Counted from the stretch's first letter, positions 24,987 to 42,664 are shown. The stretch: DNA of 42,667 bases from Nitrospira sp. (GCA_023248215.1 JAHFEW010000030.1:2517-45183), one strand, 5' to 3'. The notes: generated by a model not told the origin, from the sequence alone. Program-made: numbers and translations.

Positions 24987-26003
24987 ATGGCTGTTCCAGT
25001 CTCCCAGATGTATACAGTGAGCAAGTACGTGTTGGCCCAGAAACTCAGGGGGGTCAAGCGGTACCCGCTCGTGCTCATGCTCGAGCCGCTGTTTCGGTGC
25101 AATCTCGCTTGCGCGGGATGCGGCAAGATTCAATATCCGGATCATGTCCTGGATAAACGGTTGACGCCGGCACAATGTTGGGCCGCGGCCGATGAATGTG
25201 CGGCGCCCATCATCAGCATTCCCGGCGGCGAACCGCTGATTCATCCGGAGATGGCCGAGATCGTGCGCGGGCTCGTGGCGCGTCAGAAATATGTGTATCT
25301 CTGCACCAATGCGATTCTGATGGAGCGGAAACTCGACGAGTATCCAGCGTCGAAGTTTCTCACCTTCAGTGTGCACATGGATGGCCTGCGGGACGAGCAT
25401 GACCTGGCGGTCTGCCGGGACGGCGTCTACGATGTGGCGGTGAAGGCCATCAAGGCCGCGCTGAAACGCGGCCACCGGGTCACCACCAACACGACCCTCT
25501 TCGACGATGCCAATCCGGAACGGGTACGGAAGTTTTTTGACGAGATGATGGGGCTGGGCGTCGAGGGCATGATGATCTCGCCCGGGTACAGCTATCAGAA
25601 GGCGCCGGACCAACAGCATTTTCTCAAGCGCAGCCGAACGACGGAATTGTTTTCCAAGATTCTGAGCAATCGGAAGCGCGGCTGGCAGTTCAATCAGTCG
25701 CCGTTGTTCTTGGAGTTTCTCATGGGCAAGCGGGAGTACCAATGCACGCCGTGGGGGAATCCGACGTACAACGTCTTTGGCTGGCAACGCCCCTGTTATT
25801 TGCTTCAGGAGGGCTATGCCTCGAGCTTCCAGGAGCTGATGGAAAAGACTGAGTGGGACTCCTATGGTACCGGACGGAACGAAAAATGCGCGGACTGCAT
25901 GGTGCACTGCGGGTATGAGGCCTCGGCCGTGGAAGACACGTTCGGGTCTTTGTCCGGATTTGCGAAAACCGTGAAGATTACGCTGCTGCCGAGTGCGCGA
26001 TAG
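24987..26003 (+). CDS. hpnH: Radical SAM adenosylhopane synthase HpnH
   Basis: A 338-residue radical SAM protein. The Fe-S cluster motif is C38-x3-C42-x2-C45 in FRCNLACAGC. PLVLMLEPLFRCNLAC and CGKIQYPDHVLDKRL match the HpnH family closely, as do ISIPGGEPLIHPE and FSVHMDGLRDEHD. A cluster of C-terminal cysteines (CTPWGNPTYNV, CADCMVHCGYE) is also typical. HpnH adds the 5'-deoxyadenosyl group to diploptene to give adenosylhopane, the first step of extended hopanoid synthesis. No other hopanoid gene lies in the window. Its own promoter separates it from the EPS operon. Confidence 0.93.
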   Translation: MAVPVSQMYTVSKYVLAQKLRGVKRYPLVLMLEPLFRCNLACAGCGKIQYPDHVLDKRLTPAQCWAAADECAAPIISIPGGEPLIHPEMAEIVRGLVARQKYVYLCTNAILMERKLDEYPASKFLTFSVHMDGLRDEHDLAVCRDGVYDVAVKAIKAALKRGHRVTTNTTLFDDANPERVRKFFDEMMGLGVEGMMISPGYSYQKAPDQQHFLKRSRTTELFSKILSNRKRGWQFNQSPLFLEFLMGKREYQCTPWGNPTYNVFGWQRPCYLLQEGYASSFQELMEKTEWDSYGTGRNEKCADCMVHCGYEASAVEDTFGSLSGFAKTVKITLLPSAR

Positions 26004-26771: not shown

Positions 26772-27311
26772 ATGCGACGGCGGATAGCGAACAGTAGGAA
26801 AGCCGCCTGGCATTTTGTTGGTTTTTTGGGCCTGATCGGGTTACTGTTCGCACCGGCCGTTTTGTTTGCAAGCCACGCTGCTGACCATCGATTTACGGTC
26901 GAAGGTTTTGTGTGTGGCAAGGACGGTCGCCCGAGCACCAAGATCGAGGTGCTCGTAAAAGATACACGGATCACGGTAGGTCAAACCGTGACGACCGATG
27001 ATGACGGGTACTATAAAGTTACCCTGCATCTGCACAACGACAACGTAGGCGACCCGCTGTTGGTTGAAGCCGGCGGGGAGCCGCAGAATTTTAAGATTCA
27101 GTTCGATCCGAATGACTTGGAGACGGAACGAAAGCTCCGGGTCGATTTCGGAAGTGGGTGTGCGCGCGATCTCGGTCCTCCGCAGTGGGTATTGTACGGC
27201 GTGGGTGTCGCGGCTGTTGCTATTGTGGGATTGATTGGGCTAAAGATCTCCCGCAAGCGGATGCGCGAAGAGCAACGGCGAAGGAAGGGGCAGGGGAAGC
27301 GGCAGAAATAG
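26772..27311 (+). CDS. Secreted, membrane-anchored protein with a carboxypeptidase-regulatory-like beta domain
   Basis: A 179-residue protein. A signal or anchor helix spans about residues 14-32 (VGFLGLIGLLFAPAVLFAS). The middle (about 38-115) reads FTVEGFVCGKDGRPSTKIEVLVKDTR...TDDDGYYKVTLHLH, the pattern of a carboxypeptidase regulatory-like/transthyretin-type beta sandwich. A second hydrophobic helix follows at about 138-157 (WVLYGVGVAAVAIVGLIGL), then a strongly basic cytoplasmic tail (RKRMREEQRRRKGQGKRQK). So the beta domain faces the periplasm. It stands directly ahead of the respiratory cluster but a terminator separates them. Role unknown; an accessory or assembly role for the neighbouring complex is only a guess. 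Confidence 0.65.
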   Translation: MRRRIANSRKAAWHFVGFLGLIGLLFAPAVLFASHAADHRFTVEGFVCGKDGRPSTKIEVLVKDTRITVGQTVTTDDDGYYKVTLHLHNDNVGDPLLVEAGGEPQNFKIQFDPNDLETERKLRVDFGSGCARDLGPPQWVLYGVGVAAVAIVGLIGLKISRKRMREEQRRRKGQGKRQK

Positions 27312-27403
27312 GGTACGGTCCGTGGGGCATTGTTCCTCGCCGGATCGAATAGGCTGAAGTAGGCGGGGAAGTCAAAACGTGGCCTCGTTGTATTCTGAGC
27401 ATT

Positions 27404-27454
27404 GACGCTTATGCTGGGGCTTAATTTTAGGCTTTAGCGAAGCGTCTTTTTTTT
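27404..27454 (+). terminator. Probable rho-independent terminator
   Basis: GACGCTT (27404-27410) pairs with AAGCGTC (27440-27446), followed at once by eight T residues (27447-27454). The loop is long (29 bases), so the structure is weaker than a classical terminator. It would end the transcript of the 26772 gene before the respiratory cluster, or act as an attenuator in its leader. Confidence 0.55.
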
Positions 27455-27528
27455 CTGTCGAAGGTAAAGGTAATAGGTGTCGGCGCGGGAGTGAGCGTCG
27501 GCATGAAGAAAGGAGCGGGGAATTATTT

Positions 27529-28101
27529 ATGAAACAGGCAGGCATGAATAGGTTGGCGCTTGCGGTCGGCATCATTGGATTTGGACTGGCTGTGGTTGGC
27601 TGCGGTGGCGAAGCGGAAGGCCCGATCGTTCCTCCGCCGCCGGCCCCAGCGGAATATGCCGATAAGCATATGCCTGCCGGATGGTGGGCGGATCCAAAGA
27701 TTATCGAAGAGGGCCGTGAGTTGTACATCGGCGGCAAAAATCCCGATGTCAATTGCGCGAGCTGCCATGGCAAAGACGGAAAGCCGGTGAAAGCCGGAGC
27801 GCGGGACTTTCGAAACGGCGAACGCATGAAGCTCTATTCTGATTCGGTCTGGCTCTGGCGCATTTCCGAGGGTGTTCCCAATACTAAGATGAAGCCCTGG
27901 AAGAGCAAGTTGTCCGAGGAAGATCGTTGGAAGATCATGGCCTTTGAGCGGACATTCGGTTTGACCGGAAAAGGATGGGATCCCAACAAGAAAGACTGGG
28001 TTCCTGCTGCTGAAGTTAACGGTGCGGCAGCGCCTACTGCGGCACCGGCGGAAGCTCCCGCTGCGGCTCCTGCCGCGGCAACGGGCAAGTCCGGCAAGTA
28101 A
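27529..28101 (+). CDS. Monohaem cytochrome c lipoprotein
   Basis: A 190-residue protein with a lipoprotein signal ending LAVVGC (Cys25), so it should be lipid-anchored on the periplasmic side. The haem c site is C76-ASC-H80. KMKPWK near residue 122 offers the likely axial Met. SDSVWLWRISEGVPNTKMKPW resembles the related cytochrome at 36424. The C-terminal ~30 residues are an Ala/Pro-rich flexible tail. First gene of the eleven-gene respiratory cluster, with a good GAAAGGAG site. It is expected to shuttle electrons for or within the complex. Confidence 0.85.
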   Translation: MKQAGMNRLALAVGIIGFGLAVVGCGGEAEGPIVPPPPAPAEYADKHMPAGWWADPKIIEEGRELYIGGKNPDVNCASCHGKDGKPVKAGARDFRNGERMKLYSDSVWLWRISEGVPNTKMKPWKSKLSEEDRWKIMAFERTFGLTGKGWDPNKKDWVPAAEVNGAAAPTAAPAEAPAAAPAAATGKSGK

Positions 28102-28142
28102 CAGTGTTCTGATTTCCGACTGGGGAGGAGCGGCGAGACATC

Positions 28143-29846
28143 ATGAAAATCTGGCAACGTTGTTTGTTGGCCATGTTTGCGATTGTGGCGGTATTGGGGG
28201 GTGTGGCATATGCCCAGGCTCCCGGTGCGCCCCCCGTGGAGTTCCCCTACACCGGGAATCGCACGGCAGTATGGATCGTCGCTCAGCTCCACATTCTCTT
28301 TGCGGGGTTCATTCTCGGCGCTCCGATTTTCGTCGTGATCTCTGAATGGCTGGGATATCGGAAGCAGGACCCGCGTTATGACCGATTGGCCAAAGAGGTC
28401 ACGAAGGTCACGGTCATTCTTTACAGTATGACTGCGCTGACCGGCGGCCTCTTCATCTTCGTCTTGTTGGCGACCTACCCGCAATTCACTACCTGGCTCA
28501 TCAATCACTTCTTCCTGATTTTCGCGGTGATCTATCCTTTGCTGTTCATCGGCGAGACCATCATTCTCTACATGTATTTCTATACGTGGGACGCTTGGAA
28601 GGGAGAGAAGAAGGGGCGCCATATTGCATTGGGCGTGCTGCTGAACCTCATCGGGACCATCACACTCTTCGTGATTGACGGTCCGACCTCCTTCATGAAT
28701 ACCCCGGTCAGGGCCGAGGGGGTGTCGCCGGCGGAATTTCTGGCGAGCGCCTCGCTGTGGGATAAGGTGTTCAACTACAGCTGGATGCCGCTCAATCTCC
28801 ATAGGCTTGTCGGGAACGTAACATTCGGCGGATTCATCGCTGGACTGATTGCGGCCTACATGTTCATGGGTGCGAAGAAGGACGAAGAGCGAGCCTACTA
28901 TGATTGGATGGGGTTTGTCGGCAACATGATCGGTGTCGGCGCACTGTTGTTCCTGCCGTTTATGGGCTATTTGCTGTCCTATGAGCTGTGCGATTACGAC
29001 GCCTCGATTTGTCCCTACATGATGGCCGACCAGTTGTCGATGTTCTTCGAAATGCAGGGCGCCATGGTTGGCCTGATTTTCTTGGCCAGCAACTATTACA
29101 TTTGGCTGAGTATGAAACGGATTGAAGGTGTCGAGCGTGTTCGTATGACCGTGATTGCGCCGATGGTGATGGTACTGCTGCCCATCGTCATGACAAAGGT
29201 CCTCACGGACTATCCGGTTCCTGATGCCACGTCCTTGGCGTTCCTATTGCCGCTCCTGTTGGCTCCGGTGATTCTGGGGCGATTCATTCCGTTGACCGTC
29301 TCGTCCAGCACGGTCATTAAGGTCGGCTTCTTGATGGTGGTCGTCGGGAACGCGATCTGGATGACGCCGCATGGATTCGTGCCGACCGGCGCCAAGCTGG
29401 TGGCGGAGTTGGAATTGCCGTCCGATTGGAACTTCCTGGCGCTCATGCCGGCGAAAAATTCAGCGGCGTTTACCTTGATCTTTGTGACGGTGGTGAACTA
29501 TGTCATTTACAACCGTGCCGTTTCGCAAGGCACCATCGTCTGGGGGAAGATCGATTTTGCCTCGCAATTCGTTTTGGTCTTCCTGGCCTTTAGCGCCATT
29601 TGGACCATGGGGCTGATGGGTGCGGTACGATCGCTGTTGCGGAAGTATTTCCATACATACAATCTGCTGCCTGATTTCACCGCCGAGTCCTTCACGCCGA
29701 CCCTGTCCTATTCGGCCTGGTGGATCACCGGGATCACGGTGATCTTTTATGCAGTGGTCAGCTTTGCCATCCTCGTGACATTGCGCCCCACAGATTCGAA
29801 GGGCCACGCGCACGAGGGAAGCCCTGTGCCGGCTGGTGCCAAGTAG
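28143..29846 (+). CDS. Cytochrome bd-like integral membrane protein, paralogue 1
   Basis: A 567-residue membrane protein with an N-terminal signal-like helix (LLAMFAIVAVLGGVAYAQ) and about a dozen further helices, more than the nine of CydA. It shares with CydA-type proteins a histidine in the first core helix (H50, AQLHILFAGF) and another in NLHRLVGN (H220); H410 (MTPHGFVP) is a further candidate haem ligand. The GRQPW-containing quinol-binding Q-loop of CydA is absent and no CydB gene is nearby. It is clearly paralogous to the protein at 33824. Published work on Nitrospira describes bd-like proteins as possible oxidase or complex III components; which applies here cannot be decided from sequence. 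The C-terminal tail is hydrophilic. Confidence 0.8.
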   Translation: MKIWQRCLLAMFAIVAVLGGVAYAQAPGAPPVEFPYTGNRTAVWIVAQLHILFAGFILGAPIFVVISEWLGYRKQDPRYDRLAKEVTKVTVILYSMTALTGGLFIFVLLATYPQFTTWLINHFFLIFAVIYPLLFIGETIILYMYFYTWDAWKGEKKGRHIALGVLLNLIGTITLFVIDGPTSFMNTPVRAEGVSPAEFLASASLWDKVFNYSWMPLNLHRLVGNVTFGGFIAGLIAAYMFMGAKKDEERAYYDWMGFVGNMIGVGALLFLPFMGYLLSYELCDYDASICPYMMADQLSMFFEMQGAMVGLIFLASNYYIWLSMKRIEGVERVRMTVIAPMVMVLLPIVMTKVLTDYPVPDATSLAFLLPLLLAPVILGRFIPLTVSSSTVIKVGFLMVVVGNAIWMTPHGFVPTGAKLVAELELPSDWNFLALMPAKNSAAFTLIFVTVVNYVIYNRAVSQGTIVWGKIDFASQFVLVFLAFSAIWTMGLMGAVRSLLRKYFHTYNLLPDFTAESFTPTLSYSAWWITGITVIFYAVVSFAILVTLRPTDSKGHAHEGSPVPAGAK

Positions 29847-29886
29847 GGTGGTCACAATACTGGAAGGGCGATAAACGAGGGCACTC

Positions 29887-30693
29887 ATGGGAAACGTGAT
29901 TAAGAAGTCGATAGTTGGAATCGTGGTTGGTGGGATTCTGTTCGGAGCGACCAACGCCCTGGGATTTCCGTTTGTGTTCCAGGCGTTGTTTTTTGGCTAT
30001 GCCATGCTCGGTGCCATCGTCTTTATTATTCTCGATCTTCCTACGCTCAAGCCGTTCGGTGGGGTGAAGGCCGTCGGAGCCTTGATCGTGTTCTATTCCA
30101 TTCTCTCTGTCACATTCATTGCCGTCGGGTCCATGTGGCCGCAGTATGATCCGGAAGACGAAAAGGGCAAGATCGACAAGATTCTGAAGCCGAAACGAGA
30201 GCAATACGAAGCCGGCAAGGTCGACGTCTTGTTGCAGCGCGCCAAAGCGTTGGATGAAAAGGCGAAAGAGTTGACGGCCCGATTGCAGGCGCTGGGTGCG
30301 GCGCAGGCTCCTGCCGATCAAAAGGCCGGCGGCGGCGCCGCTCCTTCCGCCACGACCGCCGCAGCAAGTGGAGATCTTGCCAAGTTGGGCGAGGAGCAAT
30401 GGCAACTTCAGGAATGTTACAACTGCCACAAGTTGAACGGCGAAGGCGGGAAGAAGCGCGGTCCCGAGTTGGATAACATCGGAAACCTGCTGACAGCCGA
30501 AGAAATCGCGAAAAAGATTCTCGACCCCAAGAGTTATAAGGCCGAAGGCTTCGAGAAGGAGTTCGAAAAGGGAAAAATGCCGGATAAGTACAAGGACCTG
30601 ATGGAACCAGGTGATGTACAGGCGTTGGCGGGCTGGCTGGCCGGCTATAAGAATGCTTCGGTCAATACACCGAAGCCGATCAAGATGAAGTGA
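29887..30693 (+). CDS. Membrane-anchored cytochrome c with N-terminal helices and coiled-coil linker
   Basis: A 268-residue protein. Three hydrophobic helices lie in the first ~85 residues, followed by a charged helix (KIDKILKPKREQYEAGK through KELTARLQAL, about 98-140) that is probably a coiled coil. An Ala/Gly-rich linker leads to a cytochrome c domain with C177-YNC-H181. KMPDKYKDLMEPGD near residue 230 offers the axial Met. The gene ends by overlapping the Rieske gene start by four bases. The arrangement places the haem domain in the periplasm on a stalk, as a fixed subunit of the complex and not a soluble carrier. Confidence 0.82.
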   Translation: MGNVIKKSIVGIVVGGILFGATNALGFPFVFQALFFGYAMLGAIVFIILDLPTLKPFGGVKAVGALIVFYSILSVTFIAVGSMWPQYDPEDEKGKIDKILKPKREQYEAGKVDVLLQRAKALDEKAKELTARLQALGAAQAPADQKAGGGAAPSATTAAASGDLAKLGEEQWQLQECYNCHKLNGEGGKKRGPELDNIGNLLTAEEIAKKILDPKSYKAEGFEKEFEKGKMPDKYKDLMEPGDVQALAGWLAGYKNASVNTPKPIKMK

Positions 30694-31637
30694 GCATCAT
30701 GCAGCCGAAACTGAAATCCAAGGTTCGTTGTTCGGACAGTGAAGTCGGAGAAGTGCGCCGGGTCATCATAGACCCGCTGTCTCACGAAGTCAGCCACATC
30801 GTGGTGGGCGGCGTAGGGGCGGGGTTAGTCGAGCGTCAAGTCCCTATGGGGCAGATTCAGGGAGTGACCGACGACGTGGTGACACTCCGCTGTACGTCGG
30901 CGGAGTTCGCGGCTTTGCCGGTCTTTAGACGCGAAGACTATGTGACGACCCACGAGGTCGAAATCCCCCACCTTGAGGAGCGCATCCATGTGACGCCGGG
31001 CGAAGTGCTCGTGCCTTTCCCTGAGCTCGAACGAAGCGTGAAGCGGCGGACCTTCTTCGCCAACTTTACCCATGCCATCGGATTCCTGATCGGCCTGCCG
31101 CTCGCATTTCCTGTCCTGCGCTACCTCATGAAGCCGATGTATGCCCCCTTCGACAACCAGTGGCTGAAGATCGGCAACTCCGGAAAAATCAAGCAGGAAG
31201 ATGTCGGCGTTCAGTTCAAGTACAAGCGCAAGATCAAAGAAGCTTACATGCCTGAACAGGAAATCGACAAAAACGTGTGGGTCCTGAAGGCCACTCCCAA
31301 AGTCTTGGAAAGCATCTATCAAGGCAAGGATATGGAGTTCCGGGACGCGACAGGAAAGGCTCTCTGGACCAATAAGAAGGATGTGCCGTACATCGCATTT
31401 TCCGGCAAATGTCCCCATCTCGGGTGCGGATTCAAATGGCGGACGCACAAGACGCGGGGGCAGGTGTTTCTCTGCCCATGTCATTTGAGCATTTACGATG
31501 CCGCCGGCAAAGTGCTGGATGGGCCGGCTCCGCGCGCGCTGGATCCGTTGCCGATTAAGGTCACCGCCGCAGGCGAGATCACCATTATCGATATGGAATT
31601 CAAGGCGGGCACCAAGGCCCAGGTTCGGATTGTCTAA
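30690..31637 (+). CDS. Rieske iron-sulfur protein fused to an N-terminal PRC-barrel-like domain
   Basis: A 315-residue protein in three parts. Residues ~5-80 (SKVRCSDSEVGEVRRVIID, HEVSHIVVGG) match the PRC-barrel pattern, a small beta domain normally found in RimM and photosynthetic reaction-centre H. One membrane helix follows (about 122-142, FTHAIGFLIGLPLAFPVLRYL). The C-terminal Rieske domain binds a 2Fe-2S cluster through C241-PHLG-C246 and C262-PC-H265, with H243 as the other ligand. The second box reads CPCHLSIYD instead of CPCHGS. The start is GTG 30690, overlapping the previous stop, or ATG 30699. It would pass electrons from quinol at cytochrome b (next gene) to the c-type haems. The PRC part should face the cytoplasm. 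Confidence 0.88.
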   Translation: MSIMQPKLKSKVRCSDSEVGEVRRVIIDPLSHEVSHIVVGGVGAGLVERQVPMGQIQGVTDDVVTLRCTSAEFAALPVFRREDYVTTHEVEIPHLEERIHVTPGEVLVPFPELERSVKRRTFFANFTHAIGFLIGLPLAFPVLRYLMKPMYAPFDNQWLKIGNSGKIKQEDVGVQFKYKRKIKEAYMPEQEIDKNVWVLKATPKVLESIYQGKDMEFRDATGKALWTNKKDVPYIAFSGKCPHLGCGFKWRTHKTRGQVFLCPCHLSIYDAAGKVLDGPAPRALDPLPIKVTAAGEITIIDMEFKAGTKAQVRIV

Positions 31638-31638
31638 A

Positions 31639-32754
31639 ATGGATACGACTACGCAGCCGACAACTACGCAGCCCTCAGCCATCGAAAAAGTCTTTGCCTT
31701 TGTCGACGAACGTGTCGGGCTTAAGACCCTGCAGGCCAAGATGTTGAACGAGCCCGTCCCCGGCGGGTCACGTTGGGCCTACGTCTTCGGCTCGGTCCTG
31801 CTGTTTATCTTCATCATGCAGGCGGTCACCGGTATTTTGTTGATGTTCTATTACGTGCCGACTGCCGACCACGCCTATGCCAGTACGCAGTACATCATCC
31901 ATTCGGTTGATTACGGCTGGTTTTTATTGGGCTACCATTTCTGGGGCTCGACGGCGATGGTCGTCTGCGTCTTTGCGCACATGTCTCAAGTCTTTCTGTG
32001 GGGCGCCTACAAGAAACCTCGCGAATTGATTTGGTTGGTGGGGTTGGCGCTGTTCGGAATCGTCATGGGATTTGGGTTTACCGGATACCTCCTACCCTGG
32101 GATCAGCGGGCCTACTGGGCCACGACCGTCGGCGTCGAGATCATGGATAAGACGCCGCTTCTCGGCGACTTCATGGCCCGATTCCTGAAGGGCGGGGCGA
32201 CGCCTGGACAGATGACGCTGAGCCGCTTCTTCGTGATTCACGTCATGGTGCTGCCGGCTGCCTTGATGGGCCTGGCAGGGTTGCACGTGTTCTTGTTCCG
32301 CAAGGCCGGCCCGGCCGGACCGTTCCGCGGCACGGTCGAAGAAATTAAGGCCAAGACCGATTATTTCTTTCCCCGCCAAGTTTGGAAAGACATCGTCGGC
32401 ATGGTCCTGGTGTTCCTCTCCATCTGTAGCTTGGCCTTTTGGGAGCCAGTCGTTCTCCTTGAAGAGGCAACCCCGGATCCAGGCGACTACCATCCTGAGC
32501 CAGAGTGGTATTTCCTCTTCCTCTTTCAGCTCTTACGCCTAAAGATCTTTGCCGGAGAGTTCGGCCAGTTTCTGGGCGCCATCGCCTTGCCTGGCGCGTT
32601 CATGGCGCTCTTGGCAGCACTGCCCTTCATCGATCGCAGTCCTGAGCGAAATATCTTTAAGCGACCGATCGCCTTGATCGGATGGATTGTGGTCATGGCG
32701 AGCATTGTGATCTTCACCGTGGCAGCCATCATTAACCGCGAATTTCTCGAATAG
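31639..32754 (+). CDS. Cytochrome b (bc1/b6f type) of a complex III-like enzyme
   Basis: A 371-residue cytochrome b. Two haem-binding His pairs are H100-x13-H114 and H201-x14-H216; the x14 spacing of the second pair is the b6-type pattern. The quinol-oxidation-site motif reads P288-EWYF, preceded by HPEP. It is one chain combining the b6 part and a shortened subunit IV-like part with about three more helices. The ATG at 31639 lies one base after the Rieske stop; the frame is open upstream but those residues overlap the Rieske gene in another frame. It provides the two b haems and quinone sites of the complex. Confidence 0.92.
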   Translation: MDTTTQPTTTQPSAIEKVFAFVDERVGLKTLQAKMLNEPVPGGSRWAYVFGSVLLFIFIMQAVTGILLMFYYVPTADHAYASTQYIIHSVDYGWFLLGYHFWGSTAMVVCVFAHMSQVFLWGAYKKPRELIWLVGLALFGIVMGFGFTGYLLPWDQRAYWATTVGVEIMDKTPLLGDFMARFLKGGATPGQMTLSRFFVIHVMVLPAALMGLAGLHVFLFRKAGPAGPFRGTVEEIKAKTDYFFPRQVWKDIVGMVLVFLSICSLAFWEPVVLLEEATPDPGDYHPEPEWYFLFLFQLLRLKIFAGEFGQFLGAIALPGAFMALLAALPFIDRSPERNIFKRPIALIGWIVVMASIVIFTVAAIINREFLE

Positions 32755-32772
32755 GCGGAGGGTCTTGGGCAC

Positions 32773-33795
32773 ATGACTGGTCGAGAGACAATGTCGTCAT
32801 TCAAGTTGGGTCTGAGTATCCTGTGGCCTGCCTCCTGGACTGCCTTGCCGGTCAAGATGGCGTTTGCCGTGTTGTTTATGGCGATGGGCTCGATCCACCT
32901 TGAAACGAAGCTCGGGATAACCTTCCTGATGCTGCTCGTGAGCCCGGTCAGCGTCTTTGCGTTTTTCGTCATCTCAATGGGGATGGGCTTCCATTTTGGA
33001 GAGGGGATCGGGCTTCCTGTGCTGTTCCTGCTCTGCATTCCGATCGATATCTGGGCCTTGGGCCTCGTGGCACGGACCGTCTTTTTAGAGCAATTGCGTC
33101 TTGAACCACCGGCCTCGCTTGGCCTGAGCCTTTGGGTCAGGTTTGCGATCGCCGGGGCCATATACCTTCCCCTCTTATGGCTGATCGAGGGCGGGGCCAC
33201 CGATATCGCGCGCTCCACCGTCCAGTCAATTTTGGACATGGAGTCCCTCAAGCATCTCCCGGTAGCCGAACGGATCGGCTTGGAATTCACGGCATGGGGC
33301 AGTATCTCCATGATCGTTCTGGTGGCACTGACTTTCATCGGGCTGTCAATTTTGGGCAAATTGGTGCAAGGCCGTGCCGCAACTGCTCAACCGGCCGGCG
33401 ACAGCTACCAAGGTCTGATTTCACGTTGGGATATGCTTCGAGTGCCGGCCGATCAGGGATTGATGTTGACGGCATTCACTGCCACCGGGGCTGTGCTGAG
33501 CATCTTGTTTTGGACGGTCCTGCCGGTGTCGACGCCACATCCCCATGAATGCTGCAAACCTTCGGAAGTGACGGTTGCGCCCGCCTTCGATGCACAGAAG
33601 TCGCTCACGAAGGGAGAGAAAACGATTAAGGACGCGGAGCTGAAGATTGCGGCGCTCGAACAGCAGGCTGCTGAGGACGAGAAAGATAAAACAAAGGGCG
33701 CTAAAGACAAACCTGGTGTCAAAGAAGGCTCTGCCAAGAACGAGGGCAAAGCTTCGCAATCAACAGCCGGGAAACCGGCGGGAAGCGGCAAATGA
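32773..33795 (+). CDS. Unknown six-helix membrane protein with HPHECC motif and charged tail
   Basis: A 340-residue protein not recognised as any known family. It has about six hydrophobic helices (for instance FAVLFMAMGSIHL, FLMLLVSPVSVFAFFVIS, ISMIVLVALTFIGLSILG and LSILFWTVLPV). Right after the last helix comes H256-P-H-E-C-C261, a compact set of metal or haem ligand-type residues on the outer face. The last ~75 residues are a Lys/Glu/Ala-rich helix and linker. There is no CxxCH motif. It sits between cytochrome b and the second bd-like gene, so it is probably a structural or cofactor-binding subunit of the same complex. ATG 32773 has a GGAGGG site ten bases away; ATG 32791 is an alternative start. 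Confidence 0.7.
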   Translation: MTGRETMSSFKLGLSILWPASWTALPVKMAFAVLFMAMGSIHLETKLGITFLMLLVSPVSVFAFFVISMGMGFHFGEGIGLPVLFLLCIPIDIWALGLVARTVFLEQLRLEPPASLGLSLWVRFAIAGAIYLPLLWLIEGGATDIARSTVQSILDMESLKHLPVAERIGLEFTAWGSISMIVLVALTFIGLSILGKLVQGRAATAQPAGDSYQGLISRWDMLRVPADQGLMLTAFTATGAVLSILFWTVLPVSTPHPHECCKPSEVTVAPAFDAQKSLTKGEKTIKDAELKIAALEQQAAEDEKDKTKGAKDKPGVKEGSAKNEGKASQSTAGKPAGSGK

Positions 33796-33823
33796 CATCA
33801 TGGCGAATGACGAGGTGAGAACA

Positions 33824-35710
33824 ATGATACACCAAGGTCGGAAGGTCACAAATCAGGGGAGCCAGCTTGCAGGCCGTGCGGCCTTGCTGGCCGGATGTGC
33901 TGCATTGCTGGGAGTGGCGGGAATCCCCGACTTGGTTCTGGCGCAGGACTCCGTCGCCGCACAGGCTCCGACCGCCTACCGGGACCTTCCCTTTATCGGC
34001 AGCCGCAACCTGGTGTGGATCATCGCCCAACTCCATCTCCTGCTCGCGGGATTCGTCCTGGGCGTGCCGATTTTTGCCTGGTTGTGCGAAATCGTCGGCT
34101 GGAAATCGGGCGACAAACGCTACGACAAGTTGGCGAAAGAGTTCACCAAGCTCTTAACCTCATCTTACGCGACCACCGCCCTGTTCGGTGGGATTTTGCT
34201 GTTTCTCCTAATCGGCTTCTACCCGAAGTTGATGGCGTACCTGACCGACATCTTTTTCCCCTCCTTCCTTGTGTATTGCGCGCTGTTTCTTGTGGAGACG
34301 GCCACCCTCTACCTCTATTGGTATGGATGGGATGCCATGGCGGAAGGTAATGGGAAGAAATTTCATATTTTCCTGGGCCTCCTCCTGAATGTGTTTGCCT
34401 TCTTCATTATGATCGTGCCGAACTCTTGGGCGACCTTCCAAGCCAGTCCTGTTGTCCTTGCCGAGGGTACTGATTTCGAGCGTGCCTGGGCCGCGACGTG
34501 GAATCCAACCTGGTGGCCAGTGAATGTTCATCGGTTGATCGCCAACGTGGTGCTCGGCGGCTACATTTGCGGTGCCTATGCCGGCATCAGGTATCTGTCG
34601 GCGAGGAGCCAGGAAGAGCGGTATCACTATGATTGGATGGGGTACGTCGGCAACTTTATCGGCGTATTCGGTCTTCTCCCTCTGCCCTTCGCCGGTTATT
34701 GGCTGATGCGCGAAATTTATCAGTACAACCAACAGATGGGCATCACCCTCATGGGCGGATTCCTGTCATGGCTGTTTATTCTGCAAGCCATGTTGATCGG
34801 AGTGCTCTTTCTCGGGTCGAACTATTATTTCTGGCTCGGCATCACCCATCGAATACCAGGGTCGGAAACTCAGTATCGGAAGCCGATCATGGCGATGTTG
34901 ATCATTCTTCTGCTGTGCTTGGCTGTCTGGATGACGCCTCATTCGCTCGTCGCCAGCTTGGCAGAGGCCCAGCAGATGGGAGGCACCCACCATCCTTTGC
35001 TGGGTGTGTTCGGTGTCATGTCGGCCAAGATGACTGTCGCCAACCTGATGGTGCTGGTCACATTCATGAGCTTCATTATGTACTGGCGAGCGGGGAAGCA
35101 AGACACGGCCGGCTGGGCCAAGGTTGCCAAAGCCGTCATAGGCGCCGTTCTCGCCCTTGCCGGCATCGCGGTCATTGTTCTCGGAGTCTGGGGGTATTTC
35201 GTCCCGGCGATCATTCGCATTAATTACTTCTCCACATCACAAGTGGGCATTGTCATCTTCGTGATGTTGACGATTACGCCTCTCACCGCGCTGCTTCTGA
35301 AGAGCGCGAAGACCACGACCGAAATGGTCTGGGGGAGAATGCCGCCTCGCGCCGGTTATGCGCTGGTGCTGAATGCGGTCATGGTCATTCTGCTCATGAC
35401 GTTGATGGGGTACGCCCGCTCCTCCTCGCGCGTTCATTGGCATGTGTATGGGGTCATGCGTGATTCGTCTCAATATGCCTTCTCTCCCGCGCTGGGTTAC
35501 GCGGCAGCCTTAATGGCCTTGAACACGTTCTTGTTCTGCATGTTAGTGGCCTTCATTTTCTGGGTGGCCACCATGGGAGATAAGGCGAAGGCGTCGGCTG
35601 CGGGCGCAAAAGGGAAAGCCGAGCCAGGAGGTATTCCGGCAATGGCAGGCGGTTCGCAGACGTTGGATGAGGCCGCGAGTGATGCTTCGGTCGGACACCG
35701 TCCAGTCTGA
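33824..35710 (+). CDS. Cytochrome bd-like integral membrane protein, paralogue 2
   Basis: A 628-residue membrane protein with an N-terminal signal-like segment (LLAGCAALLGVAGIPDLVLAQ) and about 13-14 helices. It shares many blocks with paralogue 1 (AQLHLLLAGF, HYDWMGYVGN, GSNYYFWLG, MTPH). Candidate haem ligands are H71, H236 and H373. It also has two histidine clusters absent from paralogue 1: H389-H390 (GGTHHPLLG) and H538-W-H540 (RVHWHVYG), possible extra metal or haem sites. No CydA Q-loop motif is seen. I chose ATG 33824 because GAGGTGAG lies six bases upstream; the frame is open back to 33647 over the previous gene. ATG 33800 is possible. Oxidase or membrane subunit of the complex. Confidence 0.8.
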   Translation: MIHQGRKVTNQGSQLAGRAALLAGCAALLGVAGIPDLVLAQDSVAAQAPTAYRDLPFIGSRNLVWIIAQLHLLLAGFVLGVPIFAWLCEIVGWKSGDKRYDKLAKEFTKLLTSSYATTALFGGILLFLLIGFYPKLMAYLTDIFFPSFLVYCALFLVETATLYLYWYGWDAMAEGNGKKFHIFLGLLLNVFAFFIMIVPNSWATFQASPVVLAEGTDFERAWAATWNPTWWPVNVHRLIANVVLGGYICGAYAGIRYLSARSQEERYHYDWMGYVGNFIGVFGLLPLPFAGYWLMREIYQYNQQMGITLMGGFLSWLFILQAMLIGVLFLGSNYYFWLGITHRIPGSETQYRKPIMAMLIILLLCLAVWMTPHSLVASLAEAQQMGGTHHPLLGVFGVMSAKMTVANLMVLVTFMSFIMYWRAGKQDTAGWAKVAKAVIGAVLALAGIAVIVLGVWGYFVPAIIRINYFSTSQVGIVIFVMLTITPLTALLLKSAKTTTEMVWGRMPPRAGYALVLNAVMVILLMTLMGYARSSSRVHWHVYGVMRDSSQYAFSPALGYAAALMALNTFLFCMLVAFIFWVATMGDKAKASAAGAKGKAEPGGIPAMAGGSQTLDEAASDASVGHRPV

Positions 35711-35776
35711 TTGGGAAGTGATTTTTCTCTGGCCCGCCCGGGGTGGGCAGTGATCTTTATCCTTTGTTGAGGGCTT

Positions 35777-36397
35777 ATGAGCGAAGTTGTCAAACTGCAG
35801 CTAATCGGTCTCTGCGTCGTCGGCTTCGGTACAATCATTCTCCTGTTCATCAAGGCCCAATTTGCCCGGGTTATCGGCTTTGTGTCGATCGTGCTCGGGT
35901 TGTTTGCCCTGGTGGCACTCGCCGTCCCGCAGATGGCCTCTCTGCCCCCGGCAGAGGAAAGTATCAACATCGCCGATATCAAAACCCCGACGGACATGGC
36001 CTCGATCGGCCAGAAGATATTTTTCAGCAAGGGCCAGTGCGCGCTCTGTCACTCGATCGGTCCGAGCGAATCGGCGCGTTGTCCTGATTTGAAAGGCATC
36101 GGGTCTAAACTGTCTCGTGACTTCATGTTCGAGAGCTTGACGGAACCGCAAGCCTATATCTATTTGGACTACCGCCATGAAGGCATCCCGAAGGAATATC
36201 CGGCCCGGATGCCGCATATCAACAAGAACCCCATCGGCTTGTCCAAGAATGAAATTCTGTCGGTCATCGCGTTCTTGCAACAGATGAGCGGTGAGCCGAT
36301 CAGCGTGAACCCGTCTGAATTGGATCTGCCGCGTGCGACACCGGCGCCTGTCAAGGCGGCTGATGCCGGTTCGCTCGCTATGGCTCAGGTTCGATAG
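35777..36397 (+). CDS. Membrane-anchored monohaem cytochrome c
   Basis: A 206-residue protein. Two hydrophobic helices (about residues 4-25 and 32-52) anchor a periplasmic domain with C88-ALC-H92. RMPHINKNPIGLSKNEI near residue 145 offers the axial Met and ends with the usual C-terminal helix. The start ATG follows GAGGG. The spacer 35711-35776 contains a short GC-rich inverted repeat. Probably a fixed subunit linking the Rieske centre to other haems or to NXR-side electron carriers. Confidence 0.85.
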   Translation: MSEVVKLQLIGLCVVGFGTIILLFIKAQFARVIGFVSIVLGLFALVALAVPQMASLPPAEESINIADIKTPTDMASIGQKIFFSKGQCALCHSIGPSESARCPDLKGIGSKLSRDFMFESLTEPQAYIYLDYRHEGIPKEYPARMPHINKNPIGLSKNEILSVIAFLQQMSGEPISVNPSELDLPRATPAPVKAADAGSLAMAQVR

Positions 36398-36423
36398 TCG
36401 TCGGCGAAGTAGAGGAGGAAGAT

Positions 36424-37149
36424 ATGGGAGGCGTACTCGTTAGGCCGATTATTCTCACGGTCCTCATTTATCTCTTTTTGAAGTTTATCGTCCCAACTCT
36501 ACCGCATTCCGCGCCGTTGCCCTCGAGCTTGATCTTCCTGTACTTGATGCTGACAACTGCGGGCATCGTGATTTTTGCGACCTTGAGCGGTGCGTCGAAG
36601 GATGCATTCTTCGGCCCGATCTTCCGTTTTCTGACCGGCGAAAGCGGAGGGGCTCTCAGCAGCGCACGATATCTCGTGTTGGCACTGTTCCCGTTGCTCG
36701 TCGGGTGGCAGACTTATGGGAGCACAGCTTTCAGTGACGCGCCTCCGGCAGAGAACCGCACCATTCACCCCGCTCCTCCTGGTGAGTACACTGGGCTGTC
36801 GAATCCCGTTCCGAAAACGCCGGATAACATTATGTACGGCAAGGGCCTGTATGCCTCGCGCTGTTCACCTTGCCACGGTAATTTCGACGGCAAGGGGTTT
36901 GCCGCGCCTGGTTTTACGCCTCCGCCGGCGAACTTTAAAGATCCCACGACGATCGCCATGCTTCAGGAAAGTTTCCTGTTCTGGCGGATCAAGAAGGGCG
37001 GCGTAGGCCTTCCCGTCGAAGGCATGCCCTGGAAATCGGCCATGCCGCGTTGGGAGCTTGAGTTGTCTGACGAAGATATTTGGAAAGTCATTATGGGTGA
37101 GTACGATGGAGCCGGACAAAAACCACGAACGTGGGATGAGTCCGAATAA
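36424..37149 (+). CDS. Membrane-anchored monohaem cytochrome c
   Basis: A 241-residue protein with three hydrophobic helices in the first ~100 residues and a C-terminal cytochrome domain with C147-SPC-H151. SFLFWRIKKGGVGLPVEGMPWKSAMPRW gives the axial Met region in shortened form GMPWKSAMP; this resembles the 27529 cytochrome. A very good GAGGAGGA site precedes the ATG. The fold type (NIMYGKGLYASRCSPCHG...GKG) is that of class I cytochromes found in complex IV/III assemblies. Confidence 0.85.
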   Translation: MGGVLVRPIILTVLIYLFLKFIVPTLPHSAPLPSSLIFLYLMLTTAGIVIFATLSGASKDAFFGPIFRFLTGESGGALSSARYLVLALFPLLVGWQTYGSTAFSDAPPAENRTIHPAPPGEYTGLSNPVPKTPDNIMYGKGLYASRCSPCHGNFDGKGFAAPGFTPPPANFKDPTTIAMLQESFLFWRIKKGGVGLPVEGMPWKSAMPRWELELSDEDIWKVIMGEYDGAGQKPRTWDESE

Positions 37150-37189
37150 TTCCTCCGATCAGGGATTGCTGAGCAACTAAGGGGAGCGT

Positions 37190-38017
37190 ATGGCACGAGT
37201 GAGGAGACCAGGAGCGAGATGGTGGGTTGGGGCTGTCGGCCTCGTAGGGCTGTGTCTGGCCACCGGATTACAGCCGGCCTTTAGCCAACAGAGCGTGTCC
37301 GTGCGTGCCACGCTTGTGAAGGGAGCTCTTCCGGCCGATGATCCAACGGCAGCCGTGTGGGCGACTGCTGCGGTCTCTGAATTTCCCATGTCTCCTCAGG
37401 TGCATTGGCCGGTCCGCATTACCGAAGTCACTGCGAAGAGCGTCAAAGTCCGCGGATTGCACGATGGGACCACAGTCGCGATCCTAGTGGAGTACAGCGA
37501 CCCCTCTGAAGACCCTGACGACGCAGCGGCACTTGAATTCATGGTCGGTGACACCAAGGCGCATTTTGCCCATGGCCAACCGATGGCTCAGGTCGAGGGC
37601 GGTCCCGTCAATATCTGGTATTGGAAGAATAAGGACGGCAAAGGCGTCGACATGGGAGCGAAGGGTTTCGGCACCCTCAAACCCCATGCGCACCAAGATG
37701 TGAAAGCCAAGGGTGTGTATCAGGGAGGTGCTTGGAAAGTCGTGTTCTCCCGTCCCTTTCACACTGAACATGTAGACGAAGATACTCAATTCAAGCCAGG
37801 GGAGTTTGCCAGTATCGCCTTTGCAATTTGGGACGGCAAAAAGACGGACACCGGCCAACCGAAGGAAAAGGGCTCCGAAAAAGCGATTTCGTCCTGGTGG
37901 TACTTCCGGGCTGATGCGCCGCCGGACTATTCGCCGTACATGTACGCATTACTCGCGGTGGCCTTAGCGCTGGGCTTTGAGTTGGTCCTCGTGAGACGTT
38001 TAAAGAAAGGGTCGTGA
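37190..38017 (+). CDS. Ethylbenzene-dehydrogenase-family haem-binding protein (NXR gamma-like), membrane-anchored
   Basis: A 275-residue protein with a signal peptide (WWVGAVGLVGLCLATGLQPAFS-Q) and a C-terminal helix (YMYALLAVALALGFELVLV) followed by basic residues. The periplasmic domain has the beta-rich pattern of the gamma subunits of ethylbenzene dehydrogenase, DMSO-type enzymes and nitrite oxidoreductase: AVWATAAVSEFPMSPQ at the start, VAILVEYSDPSEDPDD, and QVEGGPVNIWYWKNKDGKG, the block where the b-haem Met/Lys ligands lie in relatives. Such domains bind one haem b. Here, tied to the membrane and inside a complex III-like operon, it may dock NXR-related electron flow. Exact ligands are not certain. 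Confidence 0.78.
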   Translation: MARVRRPGARWWVGAVGLVGLCLATGLQPAFSQQSVSVRATLVKGALPADDPTAAVWATAAVSEFPMSPQVHWPVRITEVTAKSVKVRGLHDGTTVAILVEYSDPSEDPDDAAALEFMVGDTKAHFAHGQPMAQVEGGPVNIWYWKNKDGKGVDMGAKGFGTLKPHAHQDVKAKGVYQGGAWKVVFSRPFHTEHVDEDTQFKPGEFASIAFAIWDGKKTDTGQPKEKGSEKAISSWWYFRADAPPDYSPYMYALLAVALALGFELVLVRRLKKGS

Positions 38018-39033
38018 GCATGAGGGCGTGGCGAAGAATACGCGTGATCGGAGCGGTAGCAGGGGTGGTCGGACTCTCGGGCCTCGTCGGAGCCGGGGGT
38101 TGTTCGATGTTTCAAAACGAACAGGCCGCGAAGGGCAAAAAGCTCTATGCCCACTATTGCATGCATTGCCACGGGGAAAACGGAAAACAGAATGAGGGCT
38201 TTAATTGGTCCTCCATGACGGATCCCAAGCCCAAGGACCTCTCCAATAAAGAAGAGATGGGCACATTTAAAGACGAAGAAATCTTCAACACCATCTCGCG
38301 CGATATGAAAGATACGGGGCCAGGCGGGGACAAGATCGGTGACGACGAATTTGCGGTCCCGACCATGCCGACGTTCAAGCACACGCTTTCGGAAGAAGAA
38401 ATCTGGGGCATCGTCGGATATGTGCGGTCGCTGCACGGCAAGAAGCTGGAATTCAACGTCGAGGGCCGAAAGAAAGAACTCCAGGCGGCGGTCCAAGCGG
38501 CAGAGCAGAAATTTAAGGACGCCGAACGTGTGGCGCAGGAAGCCGAAAAGAAAGCCAGCGATGAGGCGGACAAGAAGGGCGTCGAAGTAGACGATAACGC
38601 CTACCTCAAAGAGATGCAGCTCATGGGCCAGGCGAAAAAGGAACTCGATCAGGCGACCCTGGCCTTGACGAACTTCACGACCAGGCCCGGGAAAGGCATC
38701 AATATCACCCGCCCTGATTTAGCTATGAAGCCGGAAGCCGCGACAAAACTCGCCGAGGTCGGCAAGCAACTGTATATGACTAAATATGGCTGCAACGGTT
38801 GCCACAAGATTGGCGATGAGGGCGGGAAGGTCGGCCCTGCGCTCGATCGTGCGGGATTCCGCCTCAACCCCACCTGGGTCTATCGTTGGCTGCGAAACCC
38901 GCAGGCCATGAAGTCCGATACTCGCATGCCAAGCTTGGGGCTCAATGATGCTGACGCGAAAGCCGTGGCCCTCTATCTGAAAACGCTTCGCGCCCCGAAG
39001 CCAGACAAGCCTCTCGGAAAGGTGGGCGACTAA
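38014..39033 (+). CDS. Dihaem cytochrome c, likely lipoprotein, with central coiled coil
   Basis: A 339-residue protein with two haem c sites, C49-MHC-H53 and C260-NGC-H264. The N-terminal segment VVGLSGLVGAGGC may be a lipobox (Cys30), though the -3 residue is not Leu. Between the two haem domains lies a long charged helix (about residues 150-225) that should form a coiled coil. The second domain has RMPSLGLNDADAKAVALYL, with the axial Met. GTG 38014 overlaps the previous stop by four bases; ATG 38020 is the other choice. Last gene of the cluster; the structured repeat begins five bases after its stop. Confidence 0.87.
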   Translation: MSMRAWRRIRVIGAVAGVVGLSGLVGAGGCSMFQNEQAAKGKKLYAHYCMHCHGENGKQNEGFNWSSMTDPKPKDLSNKEEMGTFKDEEIFNTISRDMKDTGPGGDKIGDDEFAVPTMPTFKHTLSEEEIWGIVGYVRSLHGKKLEFNVEGRKKELQAAVQAAEQKFKDAERVAQEAEKKASDEADKKGVEVDDNAYLKEMQLMGQAKKELDQATLALTNFTTRPGKGINITRPDLAMKPEAATKLAEVGKQLYMTKYGCNGCHKIGDEGGKVGPALDRAGFRLNPTWVYRWLRNPQAMKSDTRMPSLGLNDADAKAVALYLKTLRAPKPDKPLGKVGD

Positions 39034-39080
39034 TCGGCTAGCAGGATGCTGAAAAAGTCCGCCGGCTTTGTGGGGACAAT

Positions 39081-39142
39081 GGGCGCTCACCGACTCGCGC
39101 CCGTGCGCAAACGTGACGCTCCTTATTCGTCGCGTCGCGCAC
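39081..39142. ncRNA. Hairpin module, copy 1 (strand unknown; structured RNA or DNA element)
   Basis: Hairpin A: GGGCGC (39081-39086), ten-base loop, GCGCCC (39097-39102). Hairpin B: outer stem GTGCGC (39103-39108) with GCGCAC (39137-39142), six-base bulge, inner stem GACGC (39115-39119) with GCGTC (39132-39136), twelve-base loop. Copy 2 has the same lengths with paired base changes. Confidence 0.55.
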
Positions 39143-39173
39143 CTCAGAGGCTCCACGTACCGCCATGGGAAAA

Positions 39174-39193
39174 GAGCCTGTCTCGGCAGGCTC
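39174..39193. repeat. Inverted repeat between the two hairpin modules
   Basis: GAGCCTG (39174-39180) and CAGGCTC (39187-39193) form a perfect 7-bp stem with a six-base loop. No T-run follows, so it is not a classical terminator. Confidence 0.5.
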
Positions 39194-39236
39194 GGGGTGG
39201 GCGGGTAAGAATGTGACGCGTCGCCTCTAAGACACT

Positions 39237-39298
39237 GCCGGCTCACCGCCTCGCCGGCGTCCACAGACGTGGCGCTCATTATTCTTCGCGCCGTGGAC
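39237..39298. ncRNA. Hairpin module, copy 2 (strand unknown; structured RNA or DNA element)
   Basis: Hairpin A: GCCGGC (39237-39242), ten-base loop, GCCGGC (39253-39258). Hairpin B: outer stem GTCCAC (39259-39264) with GTGGAC (39293-39298), six-base bulge AGACGT, inner stem GGCGC (39271-39275) with GCGCC (39288-39292), twelve-base loop. The loops are nearly the same as in copy 1 while the stems differ in a compensated way. Confidence 0.55.
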
Positions 39299-39413
39299 CT
39301 CGCTGCGGCCTTGCTGGACGGAATTTTTGAGCATCCTGCGGGGATGTTGTTCTATTGTGCTACGTGTGTGGGCTATTGAATTTCTAGTGCCAACAGAGTT
39401 TTTCCGCATCCTG

Positions 39414-40361
39414 CTAGTGCGTACTGTTGAACGTGCCGAGCCAGATGCCGAACAAGACCACGGCTCCGGCATAGACGTGTTGCTGAAACATGCTGAAGGC
39501 CGCATGCGGGGTCACCGGGGCTTTCAATCGTTGTACCTGCCACAGGAAGAGGCCTGCGAGCAAGGCCAAGACCAGGTAATATCCCATCCGCAGGCCTGAC
39601 AACTGTCCGGCCGATATCAGGCAGACCACCATCCCCGAGAGGAAGATGCCGACGGCTTCAGGTACGGCCTCGCCGAAGAAGAGTGCGGACGATTTCACTC
39701 CGATGCGGCGGTCATCCTCCCGGTCCTGCAGCGCATAGATCGTATCGTAGGCCATGGCCCAGCAGATCGTGGCGCCAAAGAGCAGCCATGCCGGCGGGTC
39801 GACGGTGCCGCGCGAGGCACCCCAGGCCATGATAGCTCCCCATCCGAACGCGATCCCAAGAACCGCCTGTGGGATCTGGACCCATCGCTTGCTGAATGGA
39901 TAGATGGCCGCCAGGAACAGAGCGATGGGACTCAGTAGCATCGTGAAGGGATTGAGTGTCAACACCAGGAGGGCCGCGATCATCACGAGGATAAGCGCGA
40001 CGAGCAGCGCTTGCCGTGGCACCAGGCGGCCCGCGGCGAGCGGTCGGCTGCTGGTTCGCGCGACATGTTTATCAAAATTGCGGTCGGCCAAATCGTTGAA
40101 GACCACGCCAAGACTGCGCATGACGAATGCGCCGAGGACAAATACTCCCATCAGCGAAATCGGCGGACGACCGTGATTCGCCAAGACCAAGGACCAGAGG
40201 CTGGGCAACATCAGCAGCCATGTGCCGGATTGGTTGCGGAGGCGGATGAGGTCAGCGACGGCGGTCCAGGACCAGGGCGGCGCTGATCGATCGACTGGAT
40301 CGTTCGCGAGAATCACGGCCTGGACCATAGCGGAGCACAGCGGGCCTGTCAACGCGGCCAA
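39414..40361 (-). CDS. UbiA-family polyprenyltransferase (UbiA or MqnP type)
   Basis: A 315-residue integral membrane prenyltransferase with about eight or nine helices. The first Asp-rich motif is N89-DLADRNF-D97 and the second is around D206-D217 (DTIYALQDREDD); both bind Mg-pyrophosphate of the polyprenyl donor. LIRLRNQSGTWLL at the N-terminus is typical of 4-hydroxybenzoate polyprenyltransferases and of the closely related MqnP of the futalosine menaquinone route. Which one applies depends on the organism's quinone; menaquinone is expected in Nitrospira. The start may be TTG 40361 or ATG 40328. Its TAG stop (39414-39416) lies inside the end of the structured repeat. Confidence 0.88.
   Translation of the reverse strand: MAALTGPLCSAMVQAVILANDPVDRSAPPWSWTAVADLIRLRNQSGTWLLMLPSLWSLVLANHGRPPISLMGVFVLGAFVMRSLGVVFNDLADRNFDKHVARTSSRPLAAGRLVPRQALLVALILVMIAALLVLTLNPFTMLLSPIALFLAAIYPFSKRWVQIPQAVLGIAFGWGAIMAWGASRGTVDPPAWLLFGATICWAMAYDTIYALQDREDDRRIGVKSSALFFGEAVPEAVGIFLSGMVVCLISAGQLSGLRMGYYLVLALLAGLFLWQVQRLKAPVTPHAAFSMFQQHVYAGAVVLFGIWLGTFNSTH
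40324..40352 (-). promoter_or_regulatory. Possible promoter within the 5' end of the UbiA-family gene
   Basis: On the minus strand TTGACA (40352-40347) and TATGGT (40329-40324) are 17 bases apart. If used, translation would have to start downstream of ATG 40328, which is hard to reconcile with the protein, so this may be chance. Confidence 0.25.
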
Positions 40362-40373
40362 TGTGGCGGGCGG

Positions 40374-40403
40374 TTGTTATGCCGTCACAAGATTGGGTAT
40401 AAC
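40374..40403 (+). promoter_or_regulatory. Candidate promoter of the caspase-like lipoprotein gene
   Basis: TTGTTA (40374-40379) and TATAAC (40398-40403) lie 18 bases apart. Transcription would begin near 40410, almost at the GTG start (40413), implying a leaderless or very short leader mRNA. Confidence 0.4.
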
Positions 40404-40412
40404 GAGTCTATT

Positions 40413-42588: not shown

Positions 42589-42664
42589 GCCGGCGTAGCT
42601 CAGTTGGCAGAGCAGCGGTTTCGTAAACCGCAGGTCGGTGGTTCGATTCCACTCGCCGGCTCCA
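42589..42664 (+). tRNA. tRNA-Thr (anticodon CGT)
   Basis: A 76-base tRNA with acceptor stem GCCGGCG pairing CGCCGGC, D-arm (AGCTCAGTTGGCAGAGC), anticodon stem GCGGT/ACCGC with loop TTCGTAA, variable loop, T-arm with GGTTCGATTCC, discriminator T and encoded CCA. The anticodon CGT reads ACG (Thr). Confidence 0.97.

Follow-up and report, generated by a model that had tools for sequence, protein, structure and literature searches.

A conserved respiratory gene cluster of Nitrospira suggests separable complex III and bd-like oxidase modules

Introduction

In Nitrospira, among the most widespread of nitrifiers, it has yet to be settled how nitrite electrons are shared out to O2 and to quinone, and to our knowledge the terminal oxidase has not been demonstrated biochemically. 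The closest described system is a region of N. moscoviensis for which a supercomplex of complexes III and IV has already been proposed, and over which RNA-seq revealed consistently high expression (Mundinger et al. 2019, PMC6606698). With regard to bd-like enzymes, a CydAA' terminal oxidase has been proposed that combines a NIDE0901-like OR-N2 subunit with a CydA of the OR-N1 type (PMC12342949), and a bd-type complex IV devoid of a quinol site has been placed on the cytochrome c side of the chain (PMC12324825); in the accepted model of nitrite oxidisers, complex III is run in reverse onto methyl-plastoquinone (PMC12324825). A quinone role resembling that of alternative complex III (ACIII) has been proposed for the bd-like protein of the nitrite oxidoreductase (NXR) gene cluster (PMC3578206). 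Here, we analysed a stretch of 42,667 nt from Nitrospira sp. (GCA_023248215.1 JAHFEW010000030.1:2517-45183; hereafter the window, with coordinates counted from its first letter), in which twelve open reading frames, g0 to g11, all on the plus strand, occupy positions 26772-39033. The cluster is the already described CIII_1 / bd-like_1 / bd-like_2 / alt_NxrC_1 locus of Nitrospira.

Division of the cluster into two modules

The cluster probably supplies Nitrospira with complex III and with an unusual oxygen-reducing enzyme, and the distribution of its genes suggests a complex III module (module A, g0-g6 and g11) and an oxidase module (module B, g7-g10). Module A would hold bd-like_1 (g2, 28143..29846), a Rieske protein (g4), cytochrome b (g5) and the orphan membrane protein g6, and module B bd-like_2 (g7, 33800..35710), the candidate terminal oxidase or complex IV, together with the cytochromes c g8 and g9 and the NXR-gamma-like g10 (alt_NxrC_1). 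In G363, a genome from another family of the class, g0-g5 and g11 are located in the interior of one contig (L101) and g7-g10 in the interior of a second one (L100). In two genomes (G311, G357) of f4, a family of the same order (Nitrospirales) as the window, g0-g5, a small version of g6, a g8-like gene and g11 are found together, while bd-like_2, g9 and g10 are missing there; the remaining bd-like proteins of these two genomes fall with bd-like_3 in the protein tree. bd-like_1 occurs without bd-like_2 in G311, G353 and G357, and bd-like_2 without bd-like_1 in the families f7, f10, f11 and f12, whose best bd-like_1 matches are cross-matches of about 1e-67 to 1e-83, compared to <=1e-148 where bd-like_1 is present. 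Thus, bd-like_1 is tied to complex III, and bd-like_2 to g8-g10.

A four-gene theme of bd-like protein, cytochrome c, cytochrome c and gamma-like protein is repeated in the genome from which the window comes, next to another bd-like gene (L138), and is also found in other classes of the Nitrospirota. At two of these loci (L145, L146), a TorD-like chaperone and the alpha and beta subunits of a type II dimethyl sulfoxide (DMSO) reductase lie within the same run as the theme, and the set of TorD, alpha, beta and gamma is complete.

The runs in question (L145:2021-11100 and L146:1883-11300) comprise the bd-like gene, two cytochromes c, the TorD-like gene and alpha, beta and gamma; the N-terminus of the L146 alpha subunit resembles NxrA.

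Conservation and layout of the cluster

Gene content, order and orientation are identical in 53/53 Nitrospira loci, which were found through g6, as far as the contigs reach; the grouping is thus not due to chance. In the complete genome of Ca. N. defluvii (L008) the proteins g0-g11 are 82-97% identical to those of the window, and the locus in the complete genome of N. moscoviensis (L045) has a counterpart to each gene, with identities of 55-92%. Of 396 sampled Nitrospirota genomes, 144 had g6; for bd-like_2 and bd-like_1, counting homologs of each, the numbers were 196 and 202. The synteny search thus revealed a widely conserved gene order, clearly unlike the order confined to this genome that would, according to a preliminary description of the locus, have spoken against its reading; within Nitrospira the cluster is commonplace and very well conserved.

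That description had listed eleven genes, g1-g11, and all of them were recovered at or near the coordinates given there and on the plus strand; absent from the list was a conserved twelfth gene, g0 (26772..27311), which ends 217 nt upstream of g1, a position that is conserved in homologous loci. Matches to Pfam families bore out the Rieske protein, cytochrome b, both bd-like proteins and five c-type cytochromes, and the six predicted haem c sites were found as CXXCH motifs, one each in g1, g3, g8 and g9 and two in g11, that are kept in 36-48 homologs per gene (an initial genome-wide scan for CXXCH-like patterns was uninformative). The mono-heme proteins are g1 (27529..28101), g3 (29887..30693) and the membrane-anchored g8 (35777..36397) and g9 (36424..37149), while the di-heme g11 (38014..39033) is probably a lipoprotein. 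The tight spacing noted earlier likewise holds, the gaps between g1 and g11 ranging from -4 to 66 nt, whereas the several overlaps reduce to two, g3/g4 and g10/g11, of 4 nt each, both of which depend on GTG starts. The likely start of cytochrome b is the ATG at 31639, 1 nt past the Rieske stop, and that of bd-like_2 the ATG at 33800. A scan with a terminator consensus returned 20 terminator-like sites, barely above the 13.4 +/- 3.7 of shuffled sequences; the clearest plus-strand site within a gap (35732-35748) is poor in its T-tract. The scan thus yielded no firm terminator inside the cluster, for which the preliminary description had stated that there was none, but, given the shuffles, it bears little on that statement either way.

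The 179-aa product of g0 is predicted to be secreted or membrane-anchored and has a weak CarboxypepD_reg-like domain. Alignment of its homologs revealed six invariant residues (H35, H39, H86, H88, C48 and C130), and this set of His and Cys in a secreted domain possibly serves in metal binding. A profile search of the PDB returned no relatives of g0.

Components of complex III

Cytochrome b (g5, 31639..32754) is encoded by a single unsplit gene and is predicted to have about seven transmembrane (TM) helices. The heme-ligating His pairs H100/H114 and H201/H216 (H-x14-H) and the PEWY motif at position 288 are conserved in its homologs, and among PDB entries it matches a bc-type cytochrome b best and b6 next. 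An N-terminal Cys of cytochrome b6 is the attachment site of an extra c-type heme; in g5, the only Cys residues are at positions 110 and 263, and both this b6f-type Cys and the b6/IV split are absent. The Rieske [2Fe-2S] protein (g4, 30690..31637; CPHLGC...CPCHLSIYD) keeps the Ser and Tyr adjoining the cluster, two residues that raise the cluster potential. As the preliminary description had noted for cytochrome c1, neither a c1 nor an f family matched any of the eleven proteins. The most likely stand-in for cytochrome c1 is g3, as it has membrane helices at the N-terminus followed by a cytochrome c domain with one heme, and its gene is located directly before that of the Rieske protein. ACIII, considered as a further candidate, was rejected, as its NrfD-like and ActA-G families were likewise unmatched among the eleven proteins.

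The orphan membrane protein g6 (32773..33795, 340 aa) was rightly set apart as unknown, as it had no match in Pfam, NCBIfam or the PDB. Its AlphaFold2 model reached a pLDDT (predicted local distance difference test) of 65, the alignment being too shallow, and fold searches with g6 gave no Foldseek match below E 0.5 and nothing but generic matches to long helices. In five genomes from other families of the class (G157, G233, G265, G329, G363) and in f4, the slot behind cytochrome b is occupied by a protein of about 95-135 aa with one helix, which starts with P-x-D-x-G/N-L-x-L/F-T-V-F and aligns with the last third of g6 only. The corresponding C-terminal one-helix module of g6 begins at about 33436 and is a separate protein across the class. 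As judged from these alignments, g6 is a class-wide small subunit joined to a large extra membrane part, N-terminal and with several helices, that is seen only in the Nitrospirales families f1-f3. In f4, the small g6 stays with Rieske and cytochrome b where bd-like_2 is missing, and g6 is therefore likely to be a subunit of complex III.

A motif of g6, HPHECC, shows little or no variation when Nitrospira sequences are aligned and was considered as a metal site. It was dropped as a general feature, as elsewhere in the order, in different genera and families, the CC is replaced (HPHEEY, HPHEDY, RPHESY) and the motif is gone outside the order.

The bd-like proteins

In both bd-like proteins, alignment identified equivalents of H19, H186 and E107 of E. 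coli CydA (H50, H220 and E138 in bd-like_1). The Q-loop positions K252/E257 are I/M in bd-like_1 and M/M in bd-like_2, the M393 position is L in bd-like_1 and K in bd-like_2, and the E445 position is L in both. The two proteins thus retain the bd core and lack the canonical quinol-site residues. CydB, whose absence had been pointed out before, was not matched in the cluster, and bd-like_1 and bd-like_2 match Cyt_bd_oxida_I only and not the heme-copper oxidase family COX1. Five His residues are invariant in 28 bd-like proteins (H80, H190, H245, H382 and H549, in a numbering that runs one higher than the count from the ATG). In addition, a tandem pair in the motif GG-T-H-H-P (H397-H398 in ATG numbering, codons at 34988..34993) is intact in all bd-like_2 orthologs tested, while the paralogs have Q-H, E-L, S-L or Y-H at this position. 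A tree built from 51 proteins places the bd-like_1 genes in a single clade (support 1.0). Genes with the HH pair cluster as well, but weakly (0.38 for 22 of them), and G006, a distant member with HH, branches apart from them. bd-like_2 appears to be the NIDE0901-like OR-N protein of the Nitrospirales, a candidate terminal oxidase.

In some class-level relatives (L098:12447-15900, L099:6521-9950), two proteins with 11-13 TM helices and about 490-550 aa are encoded between bd-like_2 and g9. The bd-like_2 of these relatives has about 800 aa with an extra C-terminal heme-c site, and the arrangement resembles TO_2 of the Manganitrophaceae (PMC9040806).

g10 and the relation to nitrite oxidoreductase

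The NXR-gamma-like haem protein of the preliminary description is encoded by g10 (37190..38017), a predicted periplasmic heme-b protein similar to NXR gamma and EbdC that has a C-terminal membrane helix. It matches the Pfam family EB_dh (PF09459, DMSO-reductase type II gamma) with 73 bits at a cut-off of 33, and TIGR03477 with 100.4 bits, which is below the subfamily cut-off of 169.85, and aligns with both the structure of NXR subunit C (7b04_C) and that of EbdC (2ivf_C).

As TIGR03479 alone failed to separate NXR from other molybdoenzymes, full-length NxrA of N. defluvii was used as query at a threshold of E <= 0.001, which recovered NxrA in 7/7 Nitrospirales as a control. At this threshold, three genomes that are 97-99% complete (G157 and G233, both from other families, and G163) had no NxrA match. 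All 12 genes are nevertheless present in order in G157 and G233, with the small g6, and all but g9 were recognised in G163. The occurrence of the cluster, g10 included, in genomes without NxrA shows that neither is specific to nitrite oxidation, and fits with the bd-like TO clusters that have been reported from Mn-oxidising relatives without genes for nitrification (PMC9040806). Judged by this distribution, the cluster is not built only for nitrite oxidation. A specific link of the cluster to nitrite oxidation is thereby weakened.

Neighbouring genes

Downstream of and convergent with g11, a UbiA prenyltransferase is encoded on the minus strand (39414-40361; 4-hydroxybenzoate octaprenyltransferase, TIGR01474, above cut-off). 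The UbiA gene closely follows g11 in 44/44 Nitrospirales loci in which both genes were found; the gap of about 380 bp in the window (39034-39413) compares with about 15-40 bp in the nearest relatives. As Nitrospira uses methyl-plastoquinone, the UbiA gene is a candidate for a quinone-biosynthesis gene linked to the cluster. Further genes of the window encode the adenosyl-hopene transferase HpnH of hopanoid synthesis (24987-26003; TIGR03470, far above cut-off), a 674-aa protein (40374-42398) whose C-terminal third weakly matches a caspase-like domain (NF047832, below cut-off) and, at the window's end, tRNA-Thr(cgt) (42589-42664).

Discussion

Based on gene content and its division among relatives, we lean towards two cooperating machines, a complex III module and a terminal oxidase module that is fed by cytochrome c, which are possibly docked to each other. 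Module A, with the Rieske protein, the unsplit b-type cytochrome, bd-like_1, g6, additional cytochromes c and g3 as a substitute for cytochrome c1, would exchange electrons between the methyl-plastoquinone pool and c-type cytochromes; g0 may belong to it as well. Complex III might operate forward with low-potential or other donors or, driven by the proton motive force, in reverse, passing part of the nitrite electrons to methyl-plastoquinone for CO2 fixation. The electrons from nitrite would be delivered to c-type cytochromes and would, for the most part, proceed via g8, g9 and g10 to O2 at bd-like_2, with the periplasmic heme-b protein g10 and the cytochromes g8 and g9 providing an entry to module B at the potential of cytochrome c. 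A III+IV supercomplex might arise by docking of the two modules, and soluble NXR might be a further partner of g10. The preliminary description had the cluster oxidise quinol or, in reverse, reduce quinone; this agrees with the accepted model of a reversible complex III, which the cytochrome b and Rieske motifs fit, but missed that bd-like_2 is a published candidate terminal oxidase. Since it is, the locus would comprise complexes III and IV and not a single unusual quinone enzyme.

Several points weigh against this interpretation. In f4 the g8-like cytochrome stays with module A, and g8 is therefore not strictly a gene of the oxidase module. Moreover, both modules have been kept together over most of an order, which speaks for a degree of unity, be it physical or regulatory, and would be equally well explained by a single complex. 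With regard to bd-like_2, the AlphaFold2 model, computed from a shallow alignment, has a pLDDT of 43, too poor for active-site geometry; the loss of the usual heme ligands M393 and E445 leaves a third heme, or its replacement, unaccounted for; and we found no biochemistry of this protein in the literature, its role as an oxidase being predicted.

A single large and stable quinone-exchanging complex of all eleven or twelve products, as had been envisaged before, would account for the tight spacing, the unbroken order across the Nitrospiraceae and further families and the uniformly high expression in N. moscoviensis (PMC6606698). We nevertheless consider it unlikely, given that the genes reside at two loci in G363, that bd-like_2, g9 and g10 are absent from the locus in G311/G357, where the rest is kept, and that bd-like_2 occurs without bd-like_1 in f7 and f10-f12; in addition, bd-like_2 resembles an O2-side enzyme more than a quinone enzyme. 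The same separations bear on the idea of a CydAA'-like heterodimeric oxidase with bd-like_1 and bd-like_2 as its halves. The published pairing of OR-N2 and OR-N1 (PMC12342949), if we are right in equating these with bd-like_2 and bd-like_1, speaks for such a heterodimer, as do the presence of both genes in one cluster and the two CydA heme His residues that each protein retains; yet each gene occurs alone (bd-like_1 in three genomes, bd-like_2 in four families), and where the cluster is split in G363, bd-like_1 travels with Rieske and cytochrome b. A heterodimer hence appears rather doubtful, if somewhat less so than the single complex.

A docking function for NXR, with g10 as the membrane anchor of NXR that feeds complexes III and IV directly, has been proposed (PMC6606698). 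Such a role might be deduced from the match of g10 to subunit C of the solved NXR structure and to EbdC and from the two loci of other classes that join a type II alpha/beta/gamma enzyme with the same bd-like and cytochrome c genes, but G157 and G233, in which no NxrA was matched, have the complete cluster including g10, and G163, likewise without a match, has almost all of it, which makes us give little credence to NXR docking as the reason for the existence of the cluster. It might also be speculated that both bd-like proteins are heme-b relays in the membrane or, as in ACIII, anchors that react with quinone, and that O2 is reduced elsewhere. The loss of M393, E445 and the quinol loop does render canonical bd chemistry unlikely, and a quinone role of the ACIII kind has been put forward for the bd-like protein encoded with NXR (PMC3578206); this reading, however, seems improbable to us in view of the O2 reductase that is needed, judged by expression in N. 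moscoviensis on nitrite (PMC6606698), and of the extra conserved His in bd-like_2 that is absent from its paralogs. Highly speculative, and the least probable idea that we raise, is that H397-H398 hold a copper centre beside a heme, so that bd-like_2 would carry out heme-copper-type O2 reduction with electrons from cytochrome c on a bd fold unrelated to heme-copper oxidases, as part of an ancestral III+IV respirasome of the class Nitrospiria that predates nitrite oxidation.

Since the cluster is also present in genomes without NXR, g10 should not be taken for an NXR subunit as a matter of course. In addition, the comparative results narrow down further tests, in that bd-like_2 and g8-g10 would be the unit to purify, apart from Rieske and cytochrome b.

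Among known systems, bc1 and b6f complexes are similar in that cytochrome b has four heme His and PEWY and that a Ser and a Tyr lie close to the cluster of the Rieske protein; in contrast to these complexes, the locus is devoid of a c1 or f match and of the b6f-type Cys, and has additional bd-like, orphan and cytochrome c genes. The N-terminal heme-binding part of the bd-like proteins, with H19, H186 and E107, resembles that of CydAB, from which they differ by the lack of the Q-loop, M393, E445 and CydB and by additional C-terminal helices. g10 is related to NXR gamma and EbdC by its EB_dh match above cut-off and its alignment with both structures, but possesses a C-terminal membrane helix, has no alpha and beta genes at its locus and occurs in NXR-less genomes. 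The TO complexes of Ca. Manganitrophaceae (PMC9040806) combine a bd-like oxidase with a periplasmic cytochrome b, some of them with parts of complex III or with two large ion-pump-like proteins, whereas Nitrospira lacks the inserted antiporter-like proteins. As in the NIDE0901-like OR-N oxidase (PMC12342949, PMC12324825), for which cytochrome c is the proposed donor, bd-like_2 is without a canonical quinol site. Closest of all is the region of N. moscoviensis (PMC6606698), which has the same genes in the same order without an essential difference, the window being from another Nitrospira species that is closest to the N. defluvii group. To this system, largely known from earlier publications, the present study adds that the cluster splits into modules, that it is also present without NXR, that g6 consists of two parts and that a His pair is specific to bd-like_2 orthologs.

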